64,000 bases of DNA from the NCBI RefSeq assembly GCF_947623445.1, contig NC_135241.1:23624501-23688500 (forward strand), read 5' to 3'. Positions 17,172-44,338 of the stretch are shown here, piece after piece (positions within the stretch are counted from its first letter, which is position 1; each line of letters opens with the position of its first letter). This DNA comes from Clavelina lepadiformis. Its lineage: Eukaryota; Chordata; Ascidiacea; Aplousobranchia; Clavelinidae. The notes beneath the pieces were generated by a model. It ran no database searches and was not told the DNA's origin. It saw only the letters and a program-made list of their open reading frames with translations. The position numbers and the translations under genes were made by a program.

Positions 17172-17838
17172 CACGACATATGGCCGCGGGAAAGTGGCCG
17201 CGAACAAACTCACCGGGGTCAACTGAACGTGACGTAAATTGACCGCAGACAAACTGACTGTGACATAAACTGGCCGGCGATCAAATTAACCGTCGATAAA
17301 TTGGCCGGCGATCAAATTAACCGACGACAAATTGGCCGTCAAAAGGTCAAAATTCTAATTCACTATCTAGTCACTATCGTCGATTTGACGACGTCACAAT
17401 TTGCGCAATAAACTTCCTTGTTTGTCAAATAACAGCTTGTGTAAATTTTAGTGCCCATATTATGTAGTGTCATATGTGTTTTGCAGTGAACGTCTTTTAA
17501 TGTTGATACTCGTATTTCTCGTATTTCCGGAAATATTTCTGTTTATTTCAATAAACGTTTCAATGTGTATTGAAATAAAAAACAATTTTGTTAAAAACAA
17601 AGGAAATAGTTACAAACAAATATTTACTTTACATATCATGTACTACCGAGTTTAAAATTTTGACCTTTTGACGGCCAATTTGTCGCCGGTTAATTTGATC
17701 GCCGGCCAATTTATCGACGGTTAATTTGATCGCCGGCCAGTTTATGTCACAGTCAGTTTGTCTGCGGTCAATTTACGTCACGTTCAGTTGACCCCGGTGA
17801 GTTTGTTCGCGGCCACTTTCCCGCGGCCATATGTCGTG
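17172..17838. mobile_element. foldback element with 183-bp inverted arms
   Basis: Arms at 17172-17354 and 17656-17838 are reverse complements over 183 bp with a single mismatch that I could find, separated by a 301-bp spacer. Each arm starts CACGACATATGG and is built of degenerate 15-31-bp subrepeats around AAATTGGCCGGCGA. Two successive 31-bp units are nearly identical. The spacer has one short open frame (17467-17655) that is AT-rich, hydrophobic and not recognisable. The related sequences GACCAAAACGGTTC (17158-17171) and GACCAAAACCACGGTTC (17844-17860) flank it, the right one 5 bp away from the arm, and may descend from a target duplication. Architecture matches foldback/MITE-type non-autonomous DNA transposons. 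The near-identical arms imply recent insertion or ongoing arm homogenisation. Superfamily is not determinable by eye. Confidence 0.85.
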
Positions 17839-20487: not shown

Positions 20488-23400
20488 ATGTTCACTGTTA
20501 CCTTGCTCAGTAACGTCTTTCTGGTTGCTGTTGTCATGACTTGGGCGGAATCGAGAATGGTGATGGCGGCGCCAGACACAGCACCAGGTTTGCTTGTTTT
20601 AGCTTATAAGAATACTATCGTTAGCACGACGCATTCAGACTTTTCTGTCTAGAGTCTAGACCAAAATTTTTCTGGGTCTGGTCAATGATATTAGGCTACT
20701 GCAGAACTGGCCTATGTATTAAAACGAACAAAACATTTCAAGAAGAGTAGGAATTTCATTAAAGGAGCTTTACAATTGAAAATATTCAGTAGGTTAAATA
20801 GTATCTACTGGCTACCATTGGTAGCTAATAACTAACAATGAAAGTAAATAGAAAATGATTTGTAGACTCTGTTTTTGTCGGACATTTTGGGCCAAATCTT
20901 AAAACATTGTTGTGCATAAGAAAACACATGAGAGAGACGGGATATTGTCACCAAAAGAAATCACCATTAAAAATTCATTAACAATTAGCCAAGAGCTTTG
21001 TGATGAAGTGCTGTTATATTTTGTTCAGAGTGAAATGCCAGATAATATCTCCTGCACATGTCACCGTAGCTCCAGGGTAAAGGATTACTTGACAAGAACT
21101 TGGCAATTAAGAGACAATGAAAGGTGTTAGCTGTTAAATTTGAGCGTTTTCCACGTATATATCGTCTAAGCTTATCATAAATATAACTTATCAAGGAAAA
21201 ATACGTCAACACTAACTTCGCCGCTTACGAAAGACTTCATTTTTAAACGTCAAAACGTAAATTTAAGCGCGTCTGAGTCCCGAGTGCGTTGAATTAGATT
21301 TGTTTTATAAATAACATACTTTTAATTACTCTCACTAAATTATCTTCAATTAAGATAATTTTTGCTTAAATTTGTTTACAAAAGAAACCTGTAGCGTATA
21401 ATATTTTATCTTTAAAACCATAAATTTTCGGATACAAATTTGCTGTGTATATGGGTGTATATATATATATATATGTATAGGTCATCGAATAAGCCACATT
21501 TTACGCATTTCTTATAAAAATGTATGTCCTCGCGGTTCCTTTAATTGTGCAGAGTCTGCATTGTATAAAACCTTTTTATACAAATTCTTAAATATGTGAA
21601 AATTTAACTTAACAAAACCAAATCTTTAAAACCCGAATTTTGAAATATTTGAGAAGAAAAGCTCCTGTTTTAATCACAACAATTTCGAAACAAGGCGCCA
21701 AGCAGGTTGTGCTGGTTCCAGTCAGATTACCGGAATAATTTCCCAACAAAATGTTGGCTGCCACTGCCAAGCAACTCCCTGGTAAAAATCGGTTTCTACC
21801 TGAATGCTTCTCATGATCTCAAACAATCGTTATCGCTCGGTTTAGTTAAAGGTTAATGGCAGATGCGATAACTAATCAGTGTTTACGGCTCCTCCTCCTC
21901 TTCCTCCTCCTCCTCCTCTTTTGGCAACAGTTTTAGGATTTCTCTTATCGGTTTTGAATCTTTTGCACAGAAAAATTTCGGTTAATTTCGGCCGAACCAA
22001 ACCGACTAAAATTTTGCTATGCCACGTTTGATAATCGTGCTTAGTTGGCGCCATTTTATCAGCACTGCCACAAAATTAATTCTACATTTACCAAATTTCT
22101 TGACCGTAAACGTGGTAAATTGACAGAGATCGGGCAGTTGATAAACCGTATACATAATTCAGTAGAAGGCTAAATCAATAAATTCGATTAAAATCACTTG
22201 CGGCTGAGAGCGACTGGATTATTTGGATGAGTTTCTGCTTTCCGAGTAAAATCAAATAAGTTTATTTCGGATGTTGATGTTTCATCGTTCAGCTATCTTC
22301 AAGTCGGCCTACGCTAAAAGTCCCCATTGACAATTATTAAAGTCTTGGAACCCCGGCCTCCAGCTTCTATGCATCATCGTCTGATGTTGACCAAATAAAC
22401 CTAAAAAGCTTCACTCCATTGTGACCCGTTGTTTGTTTGAAAATGTAAACAGCTTTGGATTTTCGCTGAGAACGTGGCAACGTTTTAGTTGTTGTGTGAC
22501 AATAAACATAAAATAAAACGTGAAATGCTGTTACACGATGGGCGCGATTGGGTCATGCAGGGTGCAAATGTTTAATTTCAAAACGTTTCAGTCTGCAGGT
22601 TCTTCTCCATAAACAACTTATAAATCACTCTACATTTCACCGCAAAAATATGAAAATGTCAAGCGCAACCTTCTGTTTTCGGCACGAACAAAATAACAGT
22701 CGCTGCAACCTAGCAATCCATTCATGCATGACGGTCTCGTTTGTGACGTCACTTTAAATCGTTGCGGTTCCTTTTCGCGTGACGTCGAATGCGATTACGG
22801 ATACCCATCGCGATAAATATTTGTTCAACAAAAACTGCATAAACAGTAAAACAACCTACGCAGCTCGTGAAAACACGTCTGTGTGACGAAACAAAGCACG
22901 GCGTGTACAAATTGCGATTTGTGAAATCCTACGTAAGCGAATTTTGATTAGTAGAAAGTCCCTATCGCCGAGATAAGGGCGTGATTATGTCAAAGTTGGG
23001 ATTTAGGCCTATTTAAATTTCTCTGTGGGATTTTAAACTGGTAAATTTTGTTTTAATATCCGCACCGGATTATTTTAGCATGTTTCATGCGACACATGGG
23101 CCATAAATCACTCGCAAGTTTAATGAAGATAAGAATAAAGTGCAATAATATACCAACAATAGAACCAAAAAAATCATCACGGAGAGAAACAAACATATAC
23201 CAAAGTTGTATTAAACATGTATTTTATTTTACCGCATTTTTATAACGACAAAACAAATTTCTAGATTTATGCAAGTCGGACAGGTTTAAAATTGTTTAAT
23301 TTTTGCCCACACAGGACTCGAAAGCTTGAATTGCAGCCGAATCTCCGATGACGTAACCTCGCAATCGGTTCAGAGTGGGCTTCCCTTTACCTTTGAGTTT

Positions 23401-26400
23401 CCGGCATCGATTCAAGCTCCGTTCCTCTATGATGATTATCCCGAACAGAGCCATAACGATTCCTACGTGTATTATCAGGGCGGCGACAATTTCAGTTTTT
23501 CAAATGGACTGCGGGTGAGGATGATGGAGCGTTGGAATGTGAACTGATACCGTTGATTAGTAGATGTTGTTGGAAATTTTCTGTTCAATGAAATATATAA
23601 TACTAAGCTTGTGGTCCTGCAAAGCGTGTCGTTCTCTGAAATAAACGGTTATTAGCAAAGTAGGTTATTATTACGCCAAGAATTCTGAAGCTAATTTGTC
23701 TGTTAAAGGCTGAAATTTGCTATGATCTTTTTTCAGTTTATGGTTTTGGATTTGGATAAAAATCTTCTTCTTTTCAATGAAAGCTACACCGACGAAGGCG
23801 ACGTTCCAAGTTATATGGTCGATGTCATAGGAGAAAACAATTCCATCAATTATGCGGTTGTAGTGGTGAGTACGTCGACATGTCAGTGACTCATTATCAC
23901 GTAATAAGCCGGTGAACGACGCCTTTTGACAGTTTGTACAACGAAAAGAAAAAAAAAACCTACAAATCAAATCGATTGCAAATCGGATCCAAAAGCGACT
24001 CAAAATTATTTTCGTCATCTCGTTACGCGTGAAAATCGCGGTCGAACACTTCCACGAACAGATGCACTGAAACTGTCACATGGACATCTTAAGTCCTATT
24101 TTTACTCCTCAGGCCAACTCGAATGGAAAATGTGCGGCGGCTCGGATCCAGCTGAGCATAGCACCGGTAGAGAATCAAACCTGCGAAGGTTCCATTGAAA
24201 CTTCGAAGTATGTGATTGACCGCAAAGTGGAACGCTACGATCTCACCATATTGGACTGCGAAGGTGAGAGGATCTAAATTATCGCATTAATTATATCAGC
24301 GGCGAGACCAAGTGTCCTCTACGCACTACGTTGCATTCCCAGACTATAATTATTTGCATAAAAACTTATAACTTGGACGTTTGTGGGCTGCGGGCAGATT
24401 TTCAAAGAAATTTGCCTAGTTTATGTCGATTGACGTCGCTTGTTCGCACGCTTTGGCATTATTTGGTGTCCAGTCGTAATTAAAAATGAACCCACTTGAC
24501 TTTTTGCTATTAATTAAGCGGCGGAGATATGACCCAGGAAGCGTCTGAAAATAAAATTGTGTTTATGTCTACAGTTCCGGACCGTAACCAACCCCATGGA
24601 AACGGAGGCAATTACACGTACCGTTGGTTTCACGACTGCGCGGGCCTTCCAGACAACGTGGTGACTTCGAAAGCGCATGAGGTATATAACATGCTATCTC
24701 CCAATACTTTAATCTCTTTACTGCGTGTCGAAAGCGCCGTAGTATTGCTATTTCTGCTTGCACGACTTTTGGTCTTCAAACATGACTCGGCGTTTGCCAT
24801 TAAGTGGCTTGGCACCACGCCAAGCATTCCAATCCGACTTGCACTAATGCCTGAAGTAGTTTAACGTTGTTTTATGTTTTCGGACAAAAAGTGTTAGTCA
24901 ATGGAGATCCCTTCTATTAGTTTACAGCCGTGTATAGATATTGAAATATTCGTATATCGGTTTTTTGCCTTGATCCTCGCACCGTGAAACATTCGTCAAT
25001 TCGTTCGATTAAAATACAATATCAACAAAATTGAATTTGAATTGAAATGAAGTATGGCGGGTTATCGCTTCATGTTTAAGTAACGATCAAGCAGTGGTAA
25101 TATCACACACAGCGTGAACTCAATTTGAAATAAATTAAATTTGAAAGCTGCCCTTTGTCAAGCATCTTATTAGGCCTGTCGAATTGGAATGCCATTCCTG
25201 GAATCTTTTATCATCATAACGTTGCCGCACACGAGCTCAATAATGAAACAAAATTCAATCTGGTCTGTTTTCCCGTATTTACATGAGATGTTTTTGTTGT
25301 GTGCAGCTGCATATTCAAAATGTGGACTTTGGAAACTCTGGCGTCTACACATGCGCCATTGAGCATAACGGCGAGGTGGTGTCCTACGTCCATCACAGGG
25401 TTTGTGTGAAAGGTGAGTCGAGTCTTTTGTTTCAGCGACACAGATAAGTTAATCTTTTTTAGGCAAATTGTCGCTTATTTTTATTGCTTTTAATGTTAAT
25501 TTATGAGATTTTTATTTTCAATTGGATTCTGTTGCTAAACCATCGCTCCTTATAAGAGATAAATTGTCGGTGCACCTGTAAATGACATTCGCAAGATCAA
25601 GCGCCGCAAAAGCGTTAATGACTGTTCTCTGTAAAAAACGCGCGATAATCGCGCTTCATCTCTAACACAAAGGGCTCTATGACGACAATCTTATCGTTTC
25701 AAACCGCCTGATTAGTTCAAGGTGTAACTCGCTAACAATGCTTAGGGCGAATTTTTGGCTGTAAGACAATTTCAATTTTTTTAAAAACCATTTGAAGGTC
25801 ACCATTCGGTTGATAGCTCCAGGCTAAGGTATTTTTCGCTTGTATTTTGTGGAGTAAAATTTTGATCAAAACAAACTGCTCGTCACACACGATTTTGAAA
25901 CTATTTCCGATTTTTACAAGGCGATTATATGCTATAGTAGAATTCTTTGACTCCTTAAGCAGCAAAGAATGGATAAAACCTAGCGGCTTTCTCAACACAG
26001 TCCTTGTATCGTTGACGTTGACTTTTCGTTTAGGTCAGTTTCGTAGTGACCCGTGCAAAAAAAAAATATCGGAAAATTGAAATATCTTTTGTGCTTTGAA
26101 CAGTCGCTTCTTGCGACTGTTCAACGACTTATTCGTTCACTGAAAAACCTGTTTTACACCTTGTTCTTGTTCAACCATTACATGCGGGAATACGGAACTG
26201 GCCTTGAAAAGTTTTAAGCGGCAAAAAGACATTTAGGCCTGCTTACATTTTTAAACAAAAATAATTACAAACTTTCATTTTCTAACTTAGCTCCAAGACT
26301 GACAGCCGCCCAGCTCAGAGTCCAATGCTCCACCGACCGCATTTTCGCCAAAATTGGTAGCACGGCGGTCCTAGAATGTCACGGCAGCCTTCCCGGAGTA

Positions 26401-28285
26401 AATACGAGTCCTATTTTCGTGAATGTCAGCTGGAAGAAGGTAAATTGGGTTGTTACCGATATTTCTATCCTTAGCCTCCTAAATTTAGACTCATATTGAT
26501 TTATTTCGCCACTGTCAGTTCGGAGCAGTCTTTGTAGAAAGTGTCTTTAAGAACGTGAAAAAAGATATTTGCTTGGCTTTACCACCTTGATTTTATTTGG
26601 TCTACGTGCGTTACAACTCATTCATTTTTATAGTTTGCCCTTTGTTATTGCTCAGCGCTACTCGGGGAAAACCATTGTTTTATTGGGCTGATGACTCTTA
26701 GTAATTTATTTACGGAAATTTTGTTGAGTCAACGCATTTTCAGGCTAATCTCGTGCCCCTCTAGCTAATACTTTTTCCACCATCTGTATTATATGATGTC
26801 TATTAAACTTTTACTTTTCTGAATGTTTTCATTTTTAAATTCGATCTTCAATTATTGTTTTTTCTTGGAAACGAAATATTACGAGCACTGATTGCCGCTG
26901 ACTGTCTTCGATTGCTTGCATGACATGAAACCGTAAACATTAAGACAAAACGCAGTGTTTATGTCAATAAGAATATTAAGTTTCAACATATCATTTGGGC
27001 GTTTCACCTAAATTGAATTCTAAATAGTTTTATTGTGGTTGTTGGGGAAAGTCCCTCAAGCGCGACATTTTTTACTGATTCTTCGCATATTTCCAATTTA
27101 GTTTTTGTTTTCATTTTTTGTTTTCTTCTGCGGTCCACAAAGAATCTCGAAATTTTAATTCCGAAAGCCTTTTCAAAGCGCTCAACGTTGTACGAAAGAC
27201 AACTTTCTTACGTATTTGATATAATTGTCAGATTTAAAAGTTTAGGAAGTGACGTATGTTTTGCAATGGAATCTTGGGTGATTTCCCAATTGCTGAATTT
27301 CTTTAACTTTCTTCAGAAAATTGACGACGGAGAATACGATGGCGGGCATTCGATGACGTGTAAGAACATTTGGTCGGACAGCGCTCTAAGCGAAGACGAT
27401 ACAAACGTCAAATGTTCCTAGTGAGTCTTCCTCGGTTCCTTGCAGGCCATTTTCTGGGTCGTTTCCTTTAAAATTCTAAACAATTTACAAAATTTAGTTT
27501 TAAGATTTTTTTTTCATTTTGTGGTGTAATTTTTTGTTTTTTGCAACATCTGGAATTCTAAATTATCCGACTTCCATGTTTTAATTCGTTTTGTGATTTC
27601 CTGAATTTTCCTTTTATCGATACCGATCTTGGTCTTAGAATTAATATCGTTATATTTGCATGTATTGATGAGTTTACAAGTTGTATTAATAAACTATATT
27701 TTATATTATCATATTTTATATTCGAAATTTTTTTACAGTGATATCGAAGATGTTCCCTGTTTATCCCGGAGTCCAAGCGCGGAAGAACAAAAATCCAGAG
27801 CAATCCAGATCAAAATGAGGATGTTTATAGAGTGAGTTGCTTCTCACTCCTAGTTTTTATCGATCTGTGTCATTTGCCTTTTATGAGTTTAATTGAAGGA
27901 CAAGCCAGTAGCGCATGTTTTATACCGAGTACCTCATCCAGATGATTGCAATGGGATTACAGCAGGATAAGCTCCATTTCAAGATTTAAACTTGGAATTA
28001 ACTTGCAGGGACGTCCACGAATCGGACTTCGGAGCCTACGAAGTCACGCTCTCGACGCTGGGACGCGACTCGTCCTCAAGCGGGATGGTGACTTTGATGA
28101 AGAACGAAATCCCGCGTCTAAGCAACAACGCCGCCGTCTTCGCGTCGTGCTTGGGTGCTTTAGTCTTCTTGCTCGTCGCAGCCGCATCGATCCTCCTCCT
28201 CTATCGTCATCGAGCCAAGATCCAGCGCTTGAGCCGGAAGGCTACCAGGGAGCAGGAGCCGGTCACTGAAACGATGAGTATTTGA
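20488..28285 (+). CDS. IL-1-receptor-like membrane protein without TIR domain
   Basis: Ten exons: 20488-20587, 23315-23514, 23737-23865, 24113-24263, 24575-24681, 25307-25412, 26291-26439, 27317-27420, 27739-27831, 28009-28285; 471 residues. Residues 1-27 or so are a signal peptide (MFTVTLLSNVFLVAVVM). Three Ig-like domains follow. Domain 2 has Cys192, WFHDC (211-215) and DFGNSGVYTC (236-245), closely matching the WYKDC and GNYTC segments of IL-1R1. The domain 1-2 linker (NSNGKC...VENQTC) matches IL-1R1 NSSYC...VENEPNLC. Domain 3 has Cys294, Trp312 and SDFGAYEV. A membrane helix spans 421-445, and a basic 26-residue tail ends in MSI. No TIR domain follows before the poly(A) signal, so signalling through MyD88 is not expected; a decoy or co-receptor role like IL-1R2 is inferred. 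Domain junctions are mostly phase 1, as usual for Ig genes. Many N-glycosylation sequons are present. Family confidence is moderate to high, function low. Confidence 0.8.
21456..21478. repeat. (TA)n microsatellite
   Basis: GTGTATATATATATATATATG-type run in the first intron of the receptor gene, with no other feature nearby. Confidence 0.85.
21889..21920. repeat. (CTC)n microsatellite
   Basis: Imperfect CTC/TTC triplet run in intron 1 of the receptor gene. A minus-strand open frame reading glycine-rich residues through it is a by-product of the repeat. Confidence 0.85.
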
Positions 28286-28661
28286 TCCTACTCTCGATCC
28301 GTTTAATCCGGAAGAGCTATCGCGGACTCTTTGGGTGGAGTTGGAAAGATTGAAGTGCCCGGGATTGGAGCTTCGCGGGATCTGTATCACGGTGAAGGAT
28401 GCCGCTTGATGCCGCTGTTTTGTTCTTTTTTATCTTCGTTGACTCCCTCGTCAAAATATTTTGCTGAAAAGACTGCTTTGAAGACGAACACGAATATTTT
28501 TCTCAACTGCTTCAACCTACTTGTCCATAAGATTGTTTACTGTGTTGACGTCAGAATGCCTGAATGACGTAGAGTATTTTTAATGGTTGCCCATGTTAAC
28601 AAGCTATCTGCCATACTGTGCAATCTTAAAGTTTTATTTTGCCAAAACTTTATTTAACGAA

Positions 28662-28667
28662 AATAAA
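28662..28667 (+). terminator. poly(A) signal of receptor gene
   Basis: AATAAA lies 377 bases after the stop codon of the IL-1-receptor-like gene and is the first canonical hexamer downstream. There is no later open frame with TIR-like motifs before it. Confidence 0.6.
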
Positions 28668-30587
28668 TTTTTTGTCTAATTTGAGTATAAGCATAATATC
28701 TACCGATATGAAAGTATTTAAAAATACTTTGTATTCGTGGCTGTTATACGTACGCGTTGCTTTTGAAAACGATTCGTTCCCGACGCAAAAAAAATAATTT
28801 CGGCCATATTTTGTTTTCAGTCTAGCAATTTTGCCGCCATATTTTAAAGATATTTTGCAGGCTATGAACTGAATTCGGTTTTTATGAAATAGTTTCTCTT
28901 GCGATTATATTGTTACTATTGTTATTGTTATTAACGCATTGTTGTTGCAATGTATTTGTGTTGCATTTTAGCGCTATTTATTCTATATCTGCGTTCTCTA
29001 TACACAAGTATAAGATCCTCACTTGGCAGAAATAAATTTTAAATGTTTTTGAATATTTGCTATCGGAAATCCCCTCATCAAACCTGTTTGTCTGGTCCCA
29101 CCAACCGGTCGCAGATATTTCGAAATTCTTTAGTGTTGATGGAAAATATAGGCCTTGAATTATTTTTGTAAGCTGCAATCAGGTGCAGTTTCAATGAGCA
29201 GCTAGCAATGGTTATCTATGACGAATGTTAGTTCAAAAACGCCACAAAGACGAAGATGAAACTTTTCACTACTGGTAGATTTTAACTGTAAGTCTACACT
29301 TGAAGAAAAATTAAGTGAAAATAGCGTTGTGAAGGCTTTTTGCGTTTCGAAATTACGTATTTAAACGAACGACGCCTAATCAGCATCAACGATAGATACG
29401 ATCTAAGTTTTATCTGGCCGGCCAGAATTCCTCCCTAATGGTCATGAAGCAAAATGTTGCAGCTTTGCTGGCACCAAGCGGCGAGTTTTACAAAATTCGA
29501 GAACGCTGCATCACAGCTAGGAATCACATTGCTGCAAGCAAGGCCGCCATTGATTGGGAAGTTCCATTGACCGAGAAGTTTCAGTGGACATTTATTAAAT
29601 GCTGAAATTTCTCAGTTAACAATACGCTTTGCCTTGAAAATCACAAAAATTACTGTTAGCCTAATTGAACGGCGCATTCGACATCAGTAACTCCTTATAA
29701 GGCGAAACATTTTTGTTTTTTGCGAGATCTTACTCAACGTGAATTTTTGCGGCGATGTACCGCAATAGGTTACTGTAGGAATTTGCGAGACCAGCATTCC
29801 ACGCAAATTAGTGATAATCGTGTTGGAAATTTTCCTTTTTCGAGCAATCCTTTCCGCGATGGGTTTCTACGAAAACCTAAGACTCCAACAGCACGAATCC
29901 GATAAGGCAAGAAATTAAAACATATAATCCCCAAGTATGGTTGCTGGAACGTGCGGGCATTTCTGCGCCCAGGGCGAAGGAAAATTCACTGTTTAATGTT
30001 TACATCTTACCGGTGAAAAATTGATAAAACGGATGACCAAAGAGTAAAAGCCGAGACTACATGGAGACTAACGCAAGTATCTCTCACTCACTTTTCCACA
30101 ATTTGAAAACGTAGTTGGAAGTGTCATAAGTTAATTACAGGTAGCCGGTGCCGACGCAAAATGACGGAAATGGCTCTCGACAGAGCACTTCGATTTTTGT
30201 TTGAAATTCTCTGTGTGTGGCTCTCTTGTTATTGCACGTCTATTTTCCAGCTTTCCACAACCTACGTATGTCTCCATGTGCCAGTGATTTGACGAGCCAC
30301 AGTCCTTACATCAAGTTTGAGTAAACTGATTATTCATTAACAATATTCACTTATCTTAGGTTGCTAAAATACACAATTGATCGCGACTAAATGAAATACA
30401 CAGGAAACCTTCTTGTGAACCACGAACACTTGAAGCAAACTTGTACAATGACACAACCACGCTTCAACATTGTAATAAGCTCCTATAAACTGTACGTTAT
30501 CTACGTTGAGGACACGTAAATCTAACCCCGACCTATCAACGACAATGCTGCAGAAACCTCAAATTTTACGATACTGGGAACTGATCA
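28668..30587. other. convergent intergenic spacer
   Basis: Lies between the 3' end of the plus-strand receptor gene and the 3' end of minus-strand DDX24. I see no gene, tRNA or recognisable repeat in it. Confidence 0.6.
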
Positions 30588-30593
30588 TTTATT
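30588..30593 (-). terminator. candidate poly(A) signal of DDX24
   Basis: TTTATT on the plus strand is AATAAA on the minus strand, about 200 bases after the DDX24 stop codon. Confidence 0.45.
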
Positions 30594-30789
30594 TATTTTC
30601 TGTTTTGTAATTATCGAGGTGAGAAGTGAGAACGAAAACTGGTCCAAGTTACGGAGGTTTAATGTATCAACACAAGGCATAGAAGTATCATGTTGGCTAT
30701 TTTAATCAGCTTGCCCACGAGATGGCGTAACTCATAATTAACGATTTTAAATGTCCGGCATTGGAGATGGCTGTTTTAGGTTTCTGGAA

Positions 30790-33700
30790 TCATCTTTTTG
30801 ACTTTTTTGGCCGATCCGCACCAAGGGAAGGCAGGAAAAGTTCACCCCGCTGGGTAATGAATTTGCCTGAAAATGAGGTATTATGAATTTTATGTACGTA
30901 TTACTAGATGTACTAAACCTGGTTAAAATATTAACCCAGATATACCAATTACAATTCCAAGTATGAAAAATTTAAGCTTTCAAAAAACAAACCAGAAAAT
31001 CCTTTGGGAAAAATTGGCTTTTTTTGTAAAGCAGCCAATTGCTGTCTTTTCGAGTTGATCTGGTCTGATATGTCTTGGGCATCGGTTGTGTCAATGATGA
31101 CGTCCTCGTCCAGCGCCAGGTCCATAGCCTCGGCATTTTTTGTAAACCAGTCATTATGTAAACGTACCTTGGATGAAAATATAATGAAGCGTGAATTTCC
31201 ACAAGACCGCGCTGTTCCTATGTTGTTGCTACGTTACTATTCGTTGGTTGGGCTTCATTTCGTTTCGTTATGAAGTTTTTTTGAATTTATTACAATAAAA
31301 AAAAATTTGGAAATTTGTCATAGACATGAGATTGTTGTTAAATTTAAATGTGAGAGTTTTTTATTTATTCCGCGTAAATCCCGGCTAATACTGTCGCATA
31401 CACACAACTGTGTCGTCAATGCATCTCCCGCATAGCTACGAATAATAGTAACTTACATTTCTGCGGTGGTAAAAATATGTAAATGACGCAAAAGTTTGGC
31501 AGCGGCGCTGACTTAACATTTTATAGCGGGATTGCGATAATCTCTGGCCCCTGGGGCTTGGCAGCTTTTCCCGCTCCTTGATTATTATTGTTGTGAACAC
31601 ATCTTTCAAGTGTACAATAACGGTTAACAAGGTACTTTTCGCTTCGTACTGTTGATGGCAGAAATTATATGAATCGGTGTTCATTGTTCAGTCACAAGCA
31701 GGAGGTAAAAAAATAAAATTGTTCACCTTTTTTTGTTTGTGCGCCATTTTGTCGATCTCTCTGGCAACATTGACTCTCTTTTTCACGGCTGCCATGTAGC
31801 TTTCATTAATCATATATAAGGGAAGGCCGTCTTCTTTATTCAAGGATCGGCAGATACGTTTGTAGAAGTTCATCTCACTTGGGCTGACAAACATAATGCT
31901 TAGTCCGTCTTTGCCTGCAGTGACGTAATGAGCAAGAAATTTAGGGATAACGGAAATGTGAATAAATATCAAAACCACGCCGTTCGGATCGTAACCACCG
32001 CATCGCCTCCACCACTGATCCCATCCATGGACATAATTTATAATTTAAGTGTCTTAGTTATGAGCATTATCTTGTTGCCCTGATTGTGATTAAAGAAAAA
32101 GTTTTCTCAATCAAGTGCGTGTGTAAATTTCCAAGGGGTGCCGTTGCACGTGGTTGCAATTCCAAAGAAACTATTTGGAACTACATTTGTTTGTTTCTTG
32201 TCAAAGTTACAGAAAGCCGAACCTGATCTTGCAGATCTGCCACTTCTATGGATGTAGGTTTCCATGGTTCGTGGAGCTTGGTAGTGAACGACATGTTTCA
32301 CATCGGGTATGTCAAGGCCTGAAATTGTGGTCGGTTATAAGCTATCAGCTATCAACTACAGTAGTTATCAACTAACGACAAAATCACTTCCTCAGAAATA
32401 ATCCTAGCAAGCGATATACCAGTAACTGCAATGTAGCTGCGATGTGCCTGTTTGACACCATCTTATTAAAAGCCCAAGGCCTTAACAACGCACGTGAGTT
32501 GTGAGAACACCAAAGAATTATTTTAATCTCAACAGAATTCGGTCATAATTGCATTCATACCTCTTGCAGCAACGTCACTGGCTATCATCACAGCGTGAGG
32601 ATCAGTTTGAAATCTTTCGAGATGTTTTAATCGCTGTCGTTGTTGCATTTTTGCATGAATATGTAGCGGACTGCAACCAAGCACTTCCAGAACACCAGTT
32701 AAGCGAAAAATGCAGTCGATGCTGTTTGTAAATACCTGTGATGGAGCGTGATACTGCAATAATCTCTTCTAGAATACTTTGTCTTGTGTTTACTTGAATA
32801 TGAAATATCTAAACTAACCAGTGTTCTCCCGAGGTGTGATTTCAGAAAATAGAAAAGATAGTGATCCTTTTCTGATATTTCACAAAATATTTTTGCTTCT
32901 GAAAGGTTTTCGGCAGTGACTTTTTTCTAAAAAAAAAGTTGAATATTCAAAGCAAAGGAGATGTGCAGCAGTAAGTTAAAATTTTAGCTGAATCAATATC
33001 CAATTGATCAGGAAAAATGGAAAGAACCTGCTCTACGTACCGTTGTTAAATCGACAACATAGGGCTTTTTCCGTATTCCAATTTTCTTCATCAACTTATT
33101 GAGTTTTGTAGATTTTGTCTCTTGATTATTATTATTCCCTTTAAACACTGTTCGAGATGGACCAAGATGAACGGTGGTTAGCGTCGCCGAGAAAACAAAG
33201 GTCTGACGTTTCTGCCAACAGAAAAGCACAACCAAGGTATCAAACTACTTGTTTTCAGAGTTTTCTCTATGCTAATGTCGGCGTACTGGTATACAGAAAA
33301 CAAATGTATTTGAAGATGGCAGCTATGTAAGCTTATGACAAATAAAAATACCTTATTAGCTTCTTTGGCATTGATGATGTCGAATAACTTATTTAAATCT
33401 TCAAAGTGGCCCTTTTCAAGCATTCGATCGGCTTCATCAATAACCAGATAGCTAAGTCTGTGCAAAGATGACAGGTAGGGATGACCTGGTGAGGAGAAAA
33501 ATTGTCTCTGTCCGTGATAGGGAAATATTAGATCATCAAAAACGAAAGCACTAAACCTCACCTGTCTCCAGTAATTCCCATAATCTTCCCGGTGTTGCAA
33601 TAACTATATCGGGTTTCGTTTTCAGCTGTCGTACTTGCTTTTGAGGAGCCATGCCACCCACGATTGTAATAGCGCGCAAGCCGGTGTATTTTGCGACATT

Positions 33701-34983
33701 CTTGATATGTTTTGATACCTGGTAGCATGACACAGTGATAAGACAACATAAGCATATTATGCAGTTGCACATAAAGTACTCATGGTGTATCAAAAGTGAG
33801 CAAGTTAAAAATTGAGCCCACTGTATGGCTATGCATAGGTAGTCTGCGTTCTAATGATCACGTAAAAAACCTGAATTGCCAACTCCCTTGTTGGTGCCAG
33901 AATTAAAGCCGGGAGCGTTTTCACGTTAGATTTTGTGTCAGTTATCGACTCGTCAACACCAAGGAAAATATCCTCCTCATCATAATCACTGTCACACTCC
34001 TTATGGACAGCCTCTTCCATCTATACAAATGCAACGCTAATCATGCAAGCTAATGCTAAACCAGCTGCTATTATATGAGGGTGGGCTGAAAAGTTCGTAG
34101 CCTGACTAAGAAAACGTTATGGCACAGAAATGAATGTGTTTAATGTACGGTACAACACCTGTGCTTGATTGGAATTGCTTTCTCTGTCAGCCAAGATGTT
34201 ATGAATTAATGGTATTCCGAAAGCTAGTGTTTTTCCACTGCCTGTTTCTGCAGCACCCAGTACGTCTCGCTTGTCACGGATTGCAACTGGTAAAACCTTG
34301 ATAAAATGAATTGTGTGGTCATTATTTCATAAGCGCACAGGGAAAATGTGTAAGTGTAGTTTGTACGATTTCATCACCTGTCTTTGTATCTCCATCGGTT
34401 CAAGAAAATCAAGTTCTGACAAAGCTTTCAAAACAACTTCGGGTACAAATAAATTATCCCAGTGTGACATATCTTTCTTTGTGTCTTCAACTTTTGATAC
34501 CTTCTTTGGTGTTTCATTTGCGTTCTCAGTTTTCAGCTCGCGCTTTCTGGTTTTAATCTTGGCTGGTTTACTATTTATTGCATCATCAGCATCATTTGAT
34601 GAAGATTTGTCATCGGGAGAATCAGTAACAGGTTGTAAGCTTTCTTCATCGTTGTTGTTACTTGCCAGCAAAACTTGTCGAAGTTTCGCCTTTTGCTTTT
34701 GTTGTCTCTTCTTTTTCAACGAAGCTTTCTTCGTCTTCTTAATGGAAGGGGCAACTGGAGGGCTTTGTCCTGCAGATACCTACCAAGACTCATTAGTTAA
34801 TGGAGGATTAATAAATGTCCGCACGCATACAGGTAGAACAGTTTGTATCACCAGATCATACGAGTCCAGTTCTTCAAATTCTACGAGGTCATTGAAGTAG
34901 GGAACATTGGGACCAACGGCAAGAGGGATCGCTTTCCAGGAGGATCGTTCATTTATGCTTTTAACAGAATCTGATAAATTCAT
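30790..34983 (-). CDS. DDX24: DEAD-box RNA helicase DDX24
   Basis: Thirteen exons in transcript order: 34983-34852, 34779-34378, 34296-34159, 34020-33871, 33718-33562, 33485-33352, 33211-33041, 32926-32819, 32735-32561, 32318-32223, 31914-31727, 31167-30993, 30866-30790; 700 residues (human about 859). DDX24 is a nucleolar helicase of large-subunit ribosome assembly (yeast Mak5). Visible motifs: I AETGSGKT (194-201), Ia PTREL (267-271), Ib TPGRL (316-320), II DEAD (343-346), III SAT (379-381), V SDVAARGLD, VI HRSGR (546-550). DDX24-specific blocks include [17 protein letters not shown] and KIGIRKKP. The N-terminal [10 protein letters not shown] and the C-terminal KPIFPKG...TQRGE also match the family. 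The acidic insert between motifs I and Ia is shorter than in mammals. The first intron is only 72 bases. Weak donors (GTTCGG after exon 10, GTTTGT after exon 12) are supported by phase and homology. Last gene of a three-gene same-strand group. Confidence 0.95.
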
Positions 34984-34997
34984 GTCTCACAAATCAT
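34980..34997 (-). promoter_or_regulatory. upstream micro-ORF overlapping the DDX24 start
   Basis: On the minus strand a five-codon open frame, MICET, ends in a TGA that shares the bases ATGA with the DDX24 start codon. A reinitiation-type overlap like this could tune DDX24 translation. It is present in the mRNA only if the leader reaches 34997; the nearest acceptor-like AG (35009-35010) would keep it. Confidence 0.5.
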
Positions 34998-35008
34998 AGA
35001 AATTACTT

Positions 35009-35025
35009 CTGAGAACAAAAAGTAA
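35009..35025 (-). promoter_or_regulatory. acceptor-like site 25 nt upstream of DDX24 ATG
   Basis: Minus-strand CTTTTTGTTCTCAG is a textbook 3' splice site with no convincing donor in the 193-base gap to the ZNHIT2 stop codon. In tunicates such orphan acceptors commonly receive a spliced leader. Trans-splicing here is inferred, not seen. Confidence 0.45.
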
Positions 35026-35176
35026 CAAGTTAGTAAAAATAAATAAGCATTTATAGATATCGCCTATTTGTATTCAACGCAGCAGCAAAATCGAGCGATG
35101 TCGTGTTCCAGGCATTTCACAGAAACACAGTTAAAATATTATGGCAATGCAATGACTAACATTGAACAACAAGCCG

Positions 35177-36391
35177 TTAATTAAGTTCAACTATTAAAGG
35201 CTTTGATGATTTCTCCGTGGGTTTCACCCTAACGCCTTCCTTTTCTATTTCTTTTTGTATTTGTTCGTGAGTCTCGTCCGAACATTTTCTCTTTTTATAA
35301 ATTTCTGAAATTTCCACAGATAATAATGCCAAGTGCTCTTTGTAAGTTGAAGTCCAAGCCAACAGGAATTCAAGCTTCTTGACGGCGGAAAATATAGACT
35401 TTCGCTTATTCTTTATGTTGGGTTCCGCCTTTGATGGAATTGCCTTCAAATTTTTGTGATATTCAGTAAATACCGTATGAAGTTCTGAAAGTGCACAACA
35501 CACATACCTATCTACTGAATCGGGGTTAGGACCTACTAGTAAATGAGAGACATCTTGCAAACAGGCAGTGACAAAGTCATTGTCAACGTATAATTCTTGA
35601 GCTGTAGCAACATCAACACAACGCTGCATACAAGAGCAAGCCGATTCTTCAGCACAAGAAAATGTTTTGTTTTCTTTCAAAACGTCGGACGATCGCAAGC
35701 AAGATTCACAAAAATCTTCAACCAAGTCTGAGGCTCCAGAACCATTATAAAGGCGTTGAAAGAAGACATACGCAAAGAGCACGTTGACAAGGTTGAAGGG
35801 AAGTAGTGGTGAGAGTGTTTTTCCTGAAATTAGTGAAGATCTTAAAGCGGAAATGTTGGAAAGGATTCTGGGTAACTCTGGTACATCTTTTTCCTCTGCA
35901 CCCATTTCAGCAATTAACCCAGATGAATGCTGCATCCACCAAGGCTCCCAGGGTCTGTGCACGAAACTCTCTCTGATCATACCAAACTCCGGATTCGATG
36001 ATGCAAACTTTTTAAAATCTTCCTGTTCTTCGAGTGTGAGTCTGTTCCATAATTCATCCAATTCTTCTTCCTTCATATTTTCAAGATCAAGTCCTTCCAA
36101 TCTCTCCTCAAGGGACCTAAATTCATCATCACTTTCATCCTGGCTGTATTCTTCAAAAGGGATTTGTTCTTCTACTTTTTTCATCATCGCTATCACCTGT
36201 TGCTTTTCCTCGTCCGACACTTGTCGCGCTTTGAGTTCATGAACGAAGCAATCCCTGTAGAACAGTTCCGAGCATGACGCATGCTTTTCATGCTTGTAAC
36301 AATCAACACTGCAGTATTGAATATTGCATCGAGGGCAAGTGTAGCGATGCTTTTGCTTTTTACAAACAAAACACAAAGATAACATATCCAT
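35177..36391 (-). CDS. ZNHIT2: HIT zinc-finger protein ZNHIT2
   Basis: Intronless, 404 residues, near human length (403). An N-terminal zf-HIT finger uses Cys7, Cys10, Cys19, Cys22, Cys27, Cys31, His37 and Cys40, with the family sequence YTCPRCN.QYCS and then SELFYRDCF. Acidic, low-complexity segments follow, then the conserved HRPWEPWW patch and a helical C-terminal half. ZNHIT2 acts with the R2TP/prefoldin-like chaperone and links it to U5 snRNP assembly (ECD, RUVBL1/2). Start chosen at the first in-frame ATG after a pyrimidine-rich AG 12 bases upstream; the next ATG two codons on is a possible alternative. Lies 193 bases upstream of DDX24 and 432 bases after EXOSC9 on the same strand. Confidence 0.92.
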   Translation of the reverse strand: MDMLSLCFVCKKQKHRYTCPRCNIQYCSVDCYKHEKHASCSELFYRDCFVHELKARQVSDEEKQQVIAMMKKVEEQIPFEEYSQDESDDEFRSLEERLEGLDLENMKEEELDELWNRLTLEEQEDFKKFASSNPEFGMIRESFVHRPWEPWWMQHSSGLIAEMGAEEKDVPELPRILSNISALRSSLISGKTLSPLLPFNLVNVLFAYVFFQRLYNGSGASDLVEDFCESCLRSSDVLKENKTFSCAEESACSCMQRCVDVATAQELYVDNDFVTACLQDVSHLLVGPNPDSVDRYVCCALSELHTVFTEYHKNLKAIPSKAEPNIKNKRKSIFSAVKKLEFLLAWTSTYKEHLALLSVEISEIYKKRKCSDETHEQIQKEIEKEGVRVKPTEKSSKPLIVELN

Positions 36392-36402
36392 GGCAGCAAC
36401 TT

Positions 36403-36416
36403 CTGAAAATACAAAT
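36403..36416 (-). promoter_or_regulatory. acceptor-like site upstream of ZNHIT2 ATG
   Basis: Minus-strand TTTGTATTTTCAG precedes the leader AAGTTGCTGCC and the ATG. As at DDX24, this looks like a 3' splice site directly before an intronless gene, and could accept a spliced leader or a distant leader exon. Confidence 0.45.
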
Positions 36417-36823
36417 AAAGTTGTTTAAACTATGCAGTGTATCTGACAGTTGGAAGTTTTTTCATGTAAATTGTGTCTTCAGGAGAAATGCAATGGCCAA
36501 ACAACAAGTACTAAATATCACGAGTACTACACATAAGTTTAACAGAACTAATTAGTGGTTTCCTTAAATAACCATACTGGTAACAGTGGTGATTTTACCA
36601 TTAGAAATATTAGCAAACTGGCGCCGATGGCAAACCAAAATGCATCATTTCAATAAATCAGAAAGTGCTTGAAAATGCAGCAAATTGGATTTGAAACCAT
36701 CCAAGATATATAATAAAGTCATCACTTTATCAAGTGAGTCCAATGACTTTTACTGTAAGCGTGACATGGACCTATGGCTAAGAATTTTCCCATGAACACT
36801 TTGGAATTAAGTGTTATATTGAA

Positions 36824-38047
36824 TTAAGTCTCCAAAGCTGAATCGTCCAAAATCACAACTTCCTCTTCACTGTCTTCATTCTCATCTTCACTCTTTTCTT
36901 CAGGTTCTGTGTCCTCGCGCAGAGCTTTGAAGATCCCCAAACTGCTTTCAGCTCCATCCCCACTCCATGCATTCACTTTGCCATCGCCAATACTGCACGT
37001 TTGACGGTCGTGCTGTGTGAGCCAGTATGGTTTCTCAGTTTTATTATTATGCCCGTTTTTTATTGCATCATCTGTTACTGCATCTTCATTTATAGACATG
37101 TTTGCAATTTGGATTTCTTCACTTGTCTGAGAATTAACAGTCAGTTCACTTTTTAAGATATCTTTATTATCTTTACTTTTTTCTGACACAGTTTGTGACT
37201 TGGTTTTTCCCAGCTTTTTATCATCTGTATCAGTCTTAATAGCATTAAGGATAAGTTCAGTTAGTGTTTTAGCTCTGACGGCAGCGATTTCGGTGCATCT
37301 CAGTATTTGCTCCTTTGTGATATTCATCTGTCCATTCATTTGCAAACTACATAATTCTTTATGTTTGTTAATTGAAAGAATAATTTTTCCGTCCATTACT
37401 TTTTCTTCAAGGTAAGTAGGATCAATTGCCAAGCGTTCGCAACCTTTAAAAAACGCAAGTGACACATACAATGGCATATGATGAACAGTGAGTGGTATAG
37501 GGTGTTTTTCTTCCATAGTATGTATGACAATATCTTGCCCGATTACTGAAACATCTGGATATCGGAAATGTTTTAAGGCAGTAATTGCAGCAATACTGGC
37601 ACAATCTATCAAGTTCCCATCGTGACTCAGAACATGGACATGGAGGTGGATTGTCCAAGACTTCTCTCCGACTCTCACGCAAAGTGCTTCTAAATCAACA
37701 GCTCGTGATAATATGATGGATCTTTCCAACATTCTTTGAATCCCCACCCCAAGTTCACCAGGTTTAGTTGGATCGAAACTGGGGAATGCAATTGTAGACA
37801 TTTCCACGTGAACATTAAGGCGTCCTTCGCTAGGTCGACTCTCCCTTGGACGATCCATTTCAGCTGCGACTTGTGCCATTACCTTTGTTTCTCCGATTTC
37901 AACCGTGCAGCAACCGTAATCGATGCCAAAACTAATCCCTATTTTTCTGTATTCCAGCATGTCACGTTGATCCAATCGTACACCGGTGCTGATCGCTTTA
38001 AGCAGAAATTCATGTTCGAGCTTTGAAAATGCCGGAGTGCGCGGCAT
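36824..38047 (-). CDS. EXOSC9: exosome complex component EXOSC9 (RRP45)
   Basis: Intronless, 407 residues. RNase-PH-fold core subunit of the RNA exosome, pairing with EXOSC4 in the catalytically inert ring that processes and degrades RNA in nucleus and cytoplasm. Diagnostic blocks: RLDQRDMLEYRKIGISFG, DYGCC.VEIGETKVMAQV, LNHDG-like LSHDGNLIDCASIAAI, and YPDVSV followed by HHMPL and SLAFF. The tail is acidic and contains VVILDDS (397-403), a SUMO-interaction-type motif like those in the human C-terminus. An ATG 14 codons upstream (38089) is in frame, but MPRTPAFSKLEHEFLL aligns with the human start, so 38047 was chosen. The absence of introns is unusual for this gene in animals. Head of the EXOSC9-ZNHIT2-DDX24 group. 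Confidence 0.93.
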   Translation of the reverse strand: MPRTPAFSKLEHEFLLKAISTGVRLDQRDMLEYRKIGISFGIDYGCCTVEIGETKVMAQVAAEMDRPRESRPSEGRLNVHVEMSTIAFPSFDPTKPGELGVGIQRMLERSIILSRAVDLEALCVRVGEKSWTIHLHVHVLSHDGNLIDCASIAAITALKHFRYPDVSVIGQDIVIHTMEEKHPIPLTVHHMPLYVSLAFFKGCERLAIDPTYLEEKVMDGKIILSINKHKELCSLQMNGQMNITKEQILRCTEIAAVRAKTLTELILNAIKTDTDDKKLGKTKSQTVSEKSKDNKDILKSELTVNSQTSEEIQIANMSINEDAVTDDAIKNGHNNKTEKPYWLTQHDRQTCSIGDGKVNAWSGDGAESSLGIFKALREDTEPEEKSEDENEDSEEEVVILDDSALET

Positions 38048-39775
38048 GATCGTAATACCATGGAAAAACTTGTACAATTTCAGCAACAAATTTATAGGCC
38101 TATATGGTACAAGCTTTTGTATTGCTAATTAGCCTTGTGGATTGTATCATACTAAACATTGGCACAAATAAAAACGTATAGTGTATAGTCATAAAAATTA
38201 CAGAAATCAGGTAAATTTTTCATCTTCGTCTTAGACTACATTCAGGCATTCCTACTCTAGGTAAGAATGGTAACTTTTATAGAAACGATGAAGAGAATGA
38301 GGCAAAGTAAAAATTTTTACTCAGAGGCTAGTGCTAAAGTCCAATTCTTCAACGGTTGTTGGTCAGTTGGTATACTGGTGGCGGTATGGTATAATAATAA
38401 TCTTTATCCTCAGATTGAGATAAGGCTTTGCATGACTTAAACTCGTTGAAGAAGAGCCATGTGCAAGTTCCGATAGATACATATCGCATAGTTTATAAGC
38501 TCTTAGCGCATGCAGTTTCTTTAAATTCGTCGGTGATTGGTAAAATCAGTTAATATTAGTAAAGAATGGGGGTATCTGTCATCGATGTAAAACTGGGGGT
38601 GGGGAATAACTGGGAAGGGGAATCCTTACTGATTGATGTAAGCCATTAATCATATATGTAGTATGTCTAGGATATATTCTGTACATTCAGACATTTCAAA
38701 GTTAAGATTATTTTTAAAATTTGTAAACAAATGTTGAGTCATAGCACAAGTGTGTGAAAGTCTCAAAGCCCTGACAGGTGTAACATCATTTCATACATCG
38801 CCACCTCAATAATGATTGCACCCATTCTGTACATCAGCTATTCCAATACTATGACAAATAAATAAACCCCGAATCTGGCTTAGAATATATATCAGTACAT
38901 GCTTTATTGACTTTACTTGGTGACGTTTGCCTTCATTTTGTCACACTACCATGTTATGGCTCGTCATAACATGCAGATAAACGCAAGTATGAGTGTTCAA
39001 GTAGATGTTTCTTTTCCCGTCCGTTAACACGAAATATCCAGCTTACAAACAAACGGTTTGTTCATACAGTTATGTGTTGTAAATGTATCGTCATCATTAT
39101 TAAGTAAACCTAAAGCGGACCTAAACGATACAAGTATCTATTGGGACTGTGGCATGTGAGAACAAACCTATCAAACAAGAAATACGCTCACACACAATTT
39201 ATTTTAATGTTTATGGCTGGTCTCTCAATAAGAATCTTCCTTTATGGAAATCCCCCCATTTTGTACATGGATAAAGTTCGTCCCGGTTCTACACATAACG
39301 TTACCAATCCGGAGTCCGGACAAACCTTGCCGGTACCATGCTTCATACTCGCTAAATCGTTATGATCAGTTTGTGGCACATGCCACCACACTACACTTCC
39401 TGTTGTAATGGTTCTTTAGACGAGGCACTGCCGCAATCAGCAACAGCGTTGTAGTTCACGATTCATTGTTTTCTGCGCTATAGCTCACAAAAAAACATGA
39501 GGGCTACTATCACATGCATGTGCCGAAACAGTTACGATGGCATCATAATTGTTATTCTCAAACTGAGAAAAGTCATTACACGATTTACACTGGCGATGGT
39601 TTTTCATTGCTTGAGCCCCTGTTACCGAGTTTACTGTGTATTTACCTGTTACCGTGCTGGTTTCAATTGATACACACGTTTTTATTTCGTTTTTTTTAAT
39701 TTTTATATGGGCCTATAGTATTGCCTGAAATTGAAACGGTTCATCAGAACCAGAGATTTAGTGAACATGAGCAAA
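38048..39775. other. intergenic spacer
   Basis: Upstream region of EXOSC9. A short inverted repeat, ATTCTTCAACG with CGTTGAAGAAGAG, is found near 38.34-38.46 kb. No gene is supported; open frames up to 96 residues lack recognisable motifs. Confidence 0.55.
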
Positions 39776-39894
39776 CGTTGTTAATGCTAGTGCCTTACCC
39801 AAGGAATAGGACATTAAAACATTAGCGCCACAGGGTATCAAACATAGGCCGAGTTACCGCAAGCCCAGCGCTCTAATCGCTCGGCTACCGCGCC
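39776..39894 (-). mobile_element. tRNA-derived SINE fragment
   Basis: On the minus strand the segment starts GGCGCGGTAGCCGAGCG, a tRNA-like head with an A-box-like TAGCCGAGCGATTAG. It continues about 50 bases on to a B-box-like TGTTTGATACCC, and its 70-base head ends CTGTGGCGC. The body then contains CCTTGGGTAAGGCACT, a box seen in several aquatic-animal tRNA SINEs. The degenerate B box and lack of cloverleaf pairing argue against a working tRNA. The 3' end is not sharply visible. Confidence 0.6.
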
Positions 39895-40321
39895 GATAAA
39901 GTTGTGCGTAAGCGCGATGCTAGTAGTTCATATTTTTGTAAACAATGTTGCGTAAACTTATTCGTAAACATATGGCAGCTTACGCGTAGATATGACGGAA
40001 AACGATATGATAGATACCTGGGAAGGGTTGTAGAGTCAAATCAAGGTAAAATGCGGAACCGTTGTGGGTATGCCAAGTTCTCGTCTACACCAATGTGCCT
40101 ATACGTGCCTTCTATTGGCTACGGTGCGAAACTAAGTATCTCTATGTGTCCGTGGCACGCTGGTTCACGCGCCAGTTGTTTCGCTTGATTAAAAGCATTC
40201 CATATACCACTGGCGCACAAGTTGCTATCTAAATGAAAAACTGATAAAACTTGTGCTGAACCAACCTAAACCAAATCAAATGAACTGAATGCTCTTCGCC
40301 TTAGACGTACTCGTTTATATA

Positions 40322-41374: not shown

Positions 41375-41941
41375 TATTTCATTTGAGTTGGAAGATTAAC
41401 GGTACCCAAAAAAAATCAGGGTTTTAAAGAGAGATATGTGTGACGTCACAGATTTAAGCAAAACTATGACACAATTCAGTAAATAATTTTATTCGCGTAT
41501 TTCATTTGAAAACCACAATAATGCGAATGATGTTGAACTCACAAAATCATGCATCATAATCACAATGTATTTTCATACTCGGTGAACTCGAAAAATCGTA
41601 GTCGAAAACTCTCGCTATTTAGTTAAGGTTTTGCAAGATATTTAACATATGGGCTCGTTTGAAGGTAACATTTCAGGTTTTGGCTGCAGTCACTGATATT
41701 CCAGCCAACACTTAACAACAATTATCCTAATGCAACGACTGAGGTATCGTCATAAAAACAATATTATTAAAATTCAAACTACATACAGGGAATGGTAAAA
41801 AGACACGAAGGCGTATCACATGAACTGAATCATAAATAAAATTAATAAAACAAGCTTCTTGTAAAAAATTTCATCGCAAAGTGCTCTTTAAGAGGTTGAT
41901 GGATGAGATACCGAGAGTAGTCAGTTGACATCAAAACTGTT

Positions 41942-44113: not shown

Positions 44114-44137
44114 TTATCTACTTACTTCCCCTGGACC

Positions 44138-44160
44138 CTTCAATAAAATATAAAAAAGCA
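44138..44160 (-). promoter_or_regulatory. acceptor-like site upstream of RMDN-type gene
   Basis: Minus-strand CTTTTTTATATTTTATTGAAG ends 24 bases before the start codon. It is U-rich and has no obvious donor in the 225-base gap to YEATS4, so a spliced-leader acceptor is a reasonable reading. Confidence 0.35.
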
Positions 44161-44338
44161 TACAAATAACTAAGTCATTTATCGGTTTGGGAACAAAACT
44201 TGTACTTTTAGGGCCATTAAAATAGTGGAAAAAAAGACGTTTCATGAATAACCAACTTTGAAAATTTATGTAATAGTTATATAAGCACTGGTCACAAACA
44301 ATTTGCATTAAATGCTTACAATTGCATTATTGGCAAAA

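Follow-up and report, generated by a model that had tools for sequence, protein, structure and literature searches.

A 64,000-nucleotide stretch of the genome of the ascidian Clavelina lepadiformis (contig NC_135241.1, positions 23,624,501 to 23,688,500 of the forward strand; hereafter the window) carries a gene at positions 20488–28285 (+) that raises a question: does an invertebrate chordate possess a TIR-less receptor of the interleukin-1 receptor (IL-1R) family and, if so, where did this layout come from and what would such a receptor do? The window, which contains no N, corresponds to C2:23624501-23688500 of the 209-Mb genome of the same animal, and this genome was used for the paralog searches. 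Read together with its paralogs, the gene belongs to a lineage-specific IL-1R-like family and lacks the TIR domain, the other members found being clustered on another contig, C1. We propose, with a probability of about 0.6, that its product is a secondarily TIR-less IL-1R family member that would act on the receptors encoded by that cluster, either as a decoy or as a dominant-negative partner.

Rebuilding the gene gave ten exons, with GT-AG at all nine introns and a coding sequence of 1416 nt (471 amino acids plus stop). The predicted protein has an N-terminal hydrophobic stretch, an ectodomain of ~390 residues with twelve cysteines and nine N-glycosylation sequons, a single membrane helix at ~424–445 (Kyte-Doolittle 2.6) after the third immunoglobulin (Ig) domain, and a basic tail of 26 residues, RHRAKIQRLSRKATREQEPVTETMSI, followed by a TGA stop. 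A preliminary description of the locus had given this layout from the letters alone, and its coordinates, its consistent exon phases and its motifs (NSNGKC, VENQTC, WFHDC, and GVYTC) were all recovered in the rebuild, as were the helix, the tail, the stop, the signal peptide, called from hydrophobicity alone, and the poly(A) signal (AATAAA at 28662–28667 (+), with a second at 29031).

The relatives of this gene were found within its own genome. Used as a query, the window protein returned 14 matches, namely, its own ten exons (E ≤ 2.7e-11) and four weak ones, all of the latter at C1 8.742–8.787 Mb. The human IL1RAPL1 TIR domain returned four matches, the best two of which lie at C1:8.810 and 8.824 Mb. 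Between 8.730 and 8.800 Mb, C1 carries a tandem array that repeats the exons of the window gene, and five of its seven copies go on into four TIR exons. The copy with the best model, G6 (C1:8787616-8782517, minus strand), reads as one 636-codon frame with a stop, only the signal-peptide exon missing, and its TIR domain is recognized by Pfam (30.4 bits, cut-off 21.3). With G6 as the query, at least 55 matches were obtained (the counts of this search are lower bounds): 54 fell at C1 8,700,363–8,828,541, and the remaining one was exon 6 of the window gene, which makes the window gene the sole family member found outside the array. As this search caught just one of the ten window exons, other distant members of the family may have been missed.

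The array (C1:8700363-8828541) thus delimited comprises ~12 IL-1R-like genes in both orientations, one of which, G2, is a fragment. At least 11 of the C1 matches cover the first TIR exon; next to the one at 8.828 Mb, no ectodomain exon is visible. Domain 2 exons are visible for twelve copies, ten from the G6 search, one from the search with the window protein, and one from the reading of C1, and two of the twelve (G2 and G3) are without a TIR. The ectodomain and the TIR were both read in G1, G3b, G4, G5, G6, and, partly, G7; the copies at 8.700–8.727 and 8.828 Mb are known as search matches alone, and a further one, L040, from helix to TIR. The TIR domains of G1, G3b, G4, G5, and G6 score 19–46 bits on a human TIR profile. 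The coding bias used by our home-made gene finder failed to separate exons from introns, and the full window gene was not recovered unaided; the paralog models hence rest on homology and splice signals.

The window protein and G6 align by BLASTP over 353 residues, colinearly from domain 1 into the helix (132 bits, 2e-37, 26% identity), where the best of 500 shuffles of the window protein reached 26.9 bits and seven human IL-1R ectodomains 25.4 bits at most. Eight introns correspond between the two genes, all eight in the same phase and six in the same aligned column, intron positions having been compared for G6 alone. The phase agreement is partly built in, because the picking of paralog exons was guided by the phase classes of the window gene, and four of the G6 picks were set by hand. 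The G6 phases from exon 6 to the helix exon came out the same when the phase constraint was dropped and a homology bonus applied. Without either aid, five ectodomain exons of G7 (plus strand, 8.807 Mb) came out with phases 0,1,0,1,0, although that model did not pick up the helix exon or the first TIR exon. The recurrence of the same exon chain in paralogs on another contig, together with a G6 alignment far above shuffles, argues that the window gene model is not a product of chance, and its gene structure and sequence are both homologous to those of Ig-TIR receptors. Exon 1 of the window gene matched once in the genome, at C2.

To place the family, we aligned the window protein with G6, G3, G5, and G1 (alignment A4; G4 and G3b, which have missing exons, were omitted, as was exon 9 of G5, and exon ends in G1, G3, and G5 were trimmed by eye). 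Against PDB, the resulting ectodomain profile ranked IL1RL2 (45–50 bits) and IL1RAPL1 (44 bits) constructs in the top six of 2729 rows, over a match running from the last part of domain 1, across domain 2, into the first part of domain 3; lower ranks held IL1RL1 (37.4 and 28.3 bits) and other Ig chains at 33 bits or less. A profile of the array TIR domains placed IL1RAPL2, IL1RAPL1, and SIGIRR in the top five of 42 (57–39 bits), followed by TLR2 at 29. In profile–profile comparisons, the A4 ectodomains matched seven human ectodomains with an E-value of 5.8e-15 and the array TIRs matched three human TIRs with 1.4e-16, both values obtained with no profile from outside the IL-1R family as a control. 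Taken together, the PDB rankings and these comparisons support the IL-1R kinship of the array and, via the array, of the window gene, so that, as regards family placement alone, both very probably belong to the IL-1R family. In a tree of five members with seven human receptors, the family stood apart from the latter (100/100).

The window protein on its own tells much less. Around domain 2, Pfam returned generic Ig models, with Ig_2 scoring highest (29.2 bits), and phmmer against PDB returned CD276 and DPR2 first (E 0.03–0.05) and IL1RL2 at 0.89. A profile of the seven human IL-1R ectodomains gave it 33.2 bits, above all of 2000 shuffles (best 5.3), but the same profile scored unrelated Ig chains higher, such as NCAM1 (59.5 bits), DSCAM (113.4 bits), titin, and many others. 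Since generic PDB Ig chains outscore the window protein, this score was not used as family evidence; a profile restricted to human domain 2 was rejected for the same lack of specificity, and identification from the single sequence was set aside. A profile–profile comparison of the single window protein with the human family extended over 213 columns, from domain 1 as far as the first part of domain 3 (E 3.6e-7). A search of the genome with Ig_6 (PF18452) produced one sub-threshold match. No FGFR appeared among the 33 phmmer hits or the best 60 of 2729 rows of the family profile, no FGFR profile having been built for a head-to-head comparison. The IL-1R-like identity put forward in the preliminary description is supported as kinship, through the Ig-helix-TIR paralogs on C1 and their shared exon plan, and not as a reading of the single sequence: the profile matches that it had proposed as a check point to CD276 and DPR2 for the window protein alone and to IL1RL2 and IL1RAPL1 once the array is included.

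The cysteines point to the family more specifically than these single-sequence scores. Followed along the exons (all on the plus strand), they show what the window protein shares with the array and with human receptors. After the start codon and signal peptide of exon 1 (20488–20587), exon 2 (23315–23514) encodes the first half of Ig-like domain 1 with Cys40, aligned to the N-terminal Cys of the human receptors, and lacks one Cys found in all four aligned array genes. Exon 3 (23737–23865), the second half of domain 1, lacks another that is found in three of the four. Exon 4 (24113–24263) covers the domain 1/2 junction with NSNGKC...VENQTC (Cys150, Cys167, and Cys192), exon 5 (24575–24681) the C strand of domain 2 with WFHDC (Trp211 and Cys215), and exon 6 (25307–25412), the exon that first revealed the C1 paralogs, the F and G strands with GVYTC (Cys245) and CVK (Cys262). 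Domain 3 begins in exon 7 (26291–26439; Cys277, Cys294, and Trp312) and continues through exons 8 (27317–27420; Cys329 and Cys347) and 9 (27739–27831; Cys356) into exon 10 (28009–28285), which carries its end, the membrane helix, the 26-residue tail, and the stop.

Nine of these cysteines (40, 150, 167, 192, 215, 245, 262, 277, and 294) are invariant in the window gene and the four array genes, so that the window protein keeps nine of the ten that are invariant among the latter, and Cys347 and Cys356 are common to all sequences covering that stretch. The end of domain 3 reads SDFGAYEV and misses the usual F-strand Cys; because this Cys is absent in all seven family members examined, its absence is a trait of the family rather than a fault of the gene model. 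The Ig domains are arranged as in an IL-1R-type ectodomain (colinear domains 1, 2, and 3, with the N-terminal Cys and the NSxxC, xENxxC, and WxxxC motifs), and the N-terminal Cys and those of NSNGKC, VENQTC, and WFHDC (four residues after the Trp) match the extra-cysteine positions of many human IL-1Rs, whose disulfide pairing is taken from human IL1R1. The W-x3-C position of exon 5 is present in five of the seven human receptors. Randomly placed cysteines would occupy the three interior extra positions with a probability of 1.2e-4, or 2e-5 with the N-terminal one added, for distances drawn from human sequences after the window motifs had been noticed; the full pattern is itself incomplete in three of the seven human receptors (IL1R2, IL1RL1, and IL18R1), the three interior extra cysteines being complete in the other four.

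The second part of the question concerns the TIR domain, a cytoplasmic hallmark of the IL-1 receptor family that the paralogs carry and that was not found for the window gene. Exon 10 is homologous to the membrane-helix exon of the paralogs, in which four TIR exons come next in the modelled TIR-bearing copies, the first of them after an intron of 81–612 nt in the five modelled paralogs. At the place expected for such exons downstream of the window gene (28286–31700, +), none was found, and Pfam found no TIR in the six frames of 28286–31701. A human TIR hidden Markov model run on the 2203 window open reading frames (ORFs) of at least 20 amino acids across the whole 64 kb detected no TIR, the best score being 7.4 bits; when five leave-one-out controls were run, every one of them had between two and four 45-residue pieces of a human TIR ranked above all window ORFs. 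A model of the TIRs of five paralogs likewise detected none in the window (best 6.6 bits), its 20 training TIR ORFs scoring 51–93 bits and two unused, more divergent copies 8–46 bits, a range low enough that one very divergent TIR exon could escape. As the preliminary description had noted, no TIR domain was thus recognized, with any of the three tools. Splice donors after the helix score 3.2–5.3 in G1, G4, G5, and G6 and 1.1 in G3b; near the corresponding position, exon 10 of the window gene has two GT dinucleotides, which score −0.6 and −5.6.

We then considered how the TIR-less state arose. In a tree of seven family members, the window gene grouped with the TIR-bearing G6 (ultrafast bootstrap 96). 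This tree was built from exons 4–7, exon 9, and the helix exon, with blanks for G3b at exon 4 and for G5 at exon 9; in G3b and G3, exon 5 was placed by eye. A sister relationship of the window gene to human IL1R2 was rejected in the tree with seven human receptors (log-likelihood difference 64.5, approximately unbiased (AU) test p ~1e-59). A second TIR-less gene, G3 (C1:8.746-8.743 Mb), lies in the array; it too stops at its helix exon, with the tail MRNKRNKTISGMC, and no TIR-like ORF was found between it and the next array copy. The partner of G3 in these trees is G1 rather than the window gene (88 in the seven-member tree; 85.6/87 with the human receptors), so that at least two losses of the TIR are probable, that of G3 being apparently independent of that of the window gene. 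Where the preliminary description had left the choice between an independent and an ancestral origin, these trees favour the independent one over the ancestral one.

The scenario that we propose is as follows. The window gene would have been dispersed to its present chromosome from the C1 array of Ig-membrane helix-TIR genes, or would be otherwise related to that array; its TIR exons would have been lost after duplication, and the membrane-helix exon, having lost its splice donor, would now run on into a short basic tail that ends at a stop. At the cell surface, the ectodomain might still engage the same ligands or the same partner chains as the array receptors. As the protein could not recruit TIR adaptors, it would damp the signal of the array receptors as a decoy or dominant-negative partner.

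Several results weigh against this reading or parts of it. The single-sequence searches with Pfam and phmmer yielded no IL-1R call for the window protein. In the family ectodomain ranking, MDGA1 (42.5 bits) lies just below IL1RAPL1 (44 bits), and chains of IL1R1, IL1R2, IL1RAP, and IL18R1 are absent from the best 60 of the 2729 rows. In the array TIR search, IL1RAP and IL18RAP (18 bits) fall below TLRs, and the G1 TIR taken alone matches TLR2 first (29.6 bits), then SIGIRR (26.9) and IL1RAPL2 (25.5). The usual TIR box 2 motif is RDxxPG, whereas several array TIRs look altered at box 2/BB loop and read HKDFIHG, HKDGVQG, HKDGLAE, or HKNGYDLG there (e.g., G1 C1:8731560-8731718 and G6 8783582-8783743), so that signalling and adaptor recruitment by the array are putative. 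The loss of two domain 1 cysteines, in an ectodomain just 22–25% identical to the array copies, suggests that the binding surface may have changed. Finally, support for the grouping with G6 drops to 36.8/58 once the human receptors are added, and the long branches leave it with moderate trust.

It is possible, though doubtful, that the window protein instead promotes function as a TIR-less co-receptor or adhesion-type member, through ligand capture or presentation or through cell contact, which would bring it nearer to the biology of IL1RAPL. IL1RAPL proteins are synaptic adhesion molecules in vertebrates, the TIRs of IL1RAPL1/2 are the closest solved ones to the array TIR profile, and IL1RAPL1 also ranks near the top for the ectodomain. 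However, the 26-residue basic tail, inspected by eye, has no recognized signalling motif, and a surface receptor that is incapable of engaging adaptors would more simply dampen. A decaying duplicate, the frame of which looks intact and is no longer in use, would account for the missing TIR exons and the two missing domain 1 cysteines, and the array does include the fragmentary copy G2. We nevertheless consider it unlikely, as ten exons are still open in spite of the low identity to the array copies, with nearly all of the array-invariant cysteines kept and every intron bounded by GT-AG.

The two GT dinucleotides of exon 10 might also serve a TIR-bearing isoform spliced to distant TIR exons. 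With scores under those of the five paralog donors, no TIR-like frame in 64 kb, and paralog TIRs that follow the helix exon within a few hundred nucleotides, such an isoform appears very unlikely. Least probable of all is that the gene belongs to another Ig family (FGFR-like, B7/CD276-like, or IgLON-like), as the phmmer matches to CD276 and DPR2 and the generic Ig chains that outscore the window protein on the human IL-1R profile would have it. The paralogs carry TIR domains and the family profile puts IL1RL2 and IL1RAPL1 first, for which reasons the FGFRL1-like and B7-like readings were set aside; the G6 alignment, the shared introns, and the array TIR ranking oppose them as well.

A damping role for a TIR-less receptor of the IL-1R family has a vertebrate precedent. 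Vertebrate IL-1R2 has its membrane helix and a 29-residue tail on a single exon and no TIR (PMC3705552), is counted in the IL-1 receptor family as IL-1RII despite that lack (PMC6596353), and competes for ligand or partner and thereby damps signalling (PMC3705552, PMC6596353). The window protein has the same layout, with an Ig-like IL-1R ectodomain, one helix, a short tail on the helix exon, and no TIR, but the AU test shows that its gene is not an ortholog, and it keeps the domain 2 extra cysteine pair that human IL1R2 lacks. With the C1 paralogs it shares the exon plan, the phases (where modelled), and the cysteine framework; unlike the array, with its matches to the first TIR exon, it has no TIR exon found and sits on another contig. 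The family resembles human IL1RL2 and IL1RAPL1 in the ectodomain and IL1RAPL2 and IL1RAPL1 in the TIR, judging from the best PDB matches of its profiles, and differs from these receptors in forming a separate clade and in lacking the F-strand Cys of domain 3.

IL-1R-like genes of cnidarians and other invertebrates are described as encoding Ig domains, a helix, and a TIR (PMC5094078, PMC9020223); compared by description only, they keep the TIR that the window gene lacks, and the homology of the cnidarian genes to vertebrate IL-1R is disputed (PMC5094078). IL-1R-like genes are known in invertebrates, IL-1 ligands are not known outside vertebrates, and IL-1 receptors are considered to predate IL-1 cytokines (PMC9020223). 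In our own genome search, the Pfam IL1 model gave no match, in a run without a positive control. MyD88 and IRAK are listed among Ciona transcripts in a review of tunicate immunity (PMC5465252), and no occurrence of IL-1R or IL1R was found in a 2026 Ciona TLR paper (PMC12816324). In the literature covered, which is incomplete and lacks most subscription journals, we came across neither a TIR-less IL-1R-like receptor from a non-vertebrate nor a comparable array in a tunicate.

On balance, we lean towards the view that a lineage-specific array of ~12 IL-1R-like genes threw off TIR-less receptors at least twice, that the decoy layout arose here independently of vertebrate IL-1R2, and that the ligands would not be IL-1. 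The extra cysteines of the vertebrate family and the IL1RAPL-like TIR of the array speak for common descent. Because a single animal has sister receptors both with and without a TIR, it offers a system in which to test what the original ligand was and how decoys arose.

The genome searches also brought up TIR domains outside the array. Eleven of 18 TIR matches on C3, C4, C5, C6, and C7 lie in open frames of 987–1009 codons, several with stops inside the match, and seven of those frames, as read by eye, have a leucine-rich repeat-helix-TIR (TLR-like) order. Since few TLRs are described in tunicates (PMC8609888), these frames look like a TLR expansion. In the genome search with the Pfam TIR model, the top score (58.4 bits) went to a multi-exon helix and TIR gene at C5:5434913-5435880 (−) (L001), in the surrounding 30 kb of which no IL-1R-like ORF was found at an E-value of 0.5 or better.

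To our knowledge, a cellulose synthase with a GH6 domain is found only in tunicates among animals. GH6 was matched at two neighbouring places on C9, with 33.1 and 27.8 bits when in-frame neighbours were included (cut-off 27; best single E 0.003), and 14 control genomes were silent in this search, which covered the GH6 part alone; such matches would suggest a tunicate. Within the window, the minus-strand neighbours of the receptor gene at 33178–45031 comprise a DEAD-box helicase-like ORF (24.3 bits, just under the cut-off), a HIT zinc-finger protein, a one-exon RNase PH/exosome-type protein, and a YEATS-domain protein. At 17172–17838 lies a near-perfect inverted repeat, whose 187-nt arms are 99% complementary and 293 nt apart; it also contains shorter repeats and resembles the remains of a mobile element or of a hairpin. 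Two tandem copies of a ~510-bp unit, parts of which are 91–100% identical, occupy 49403–50395.

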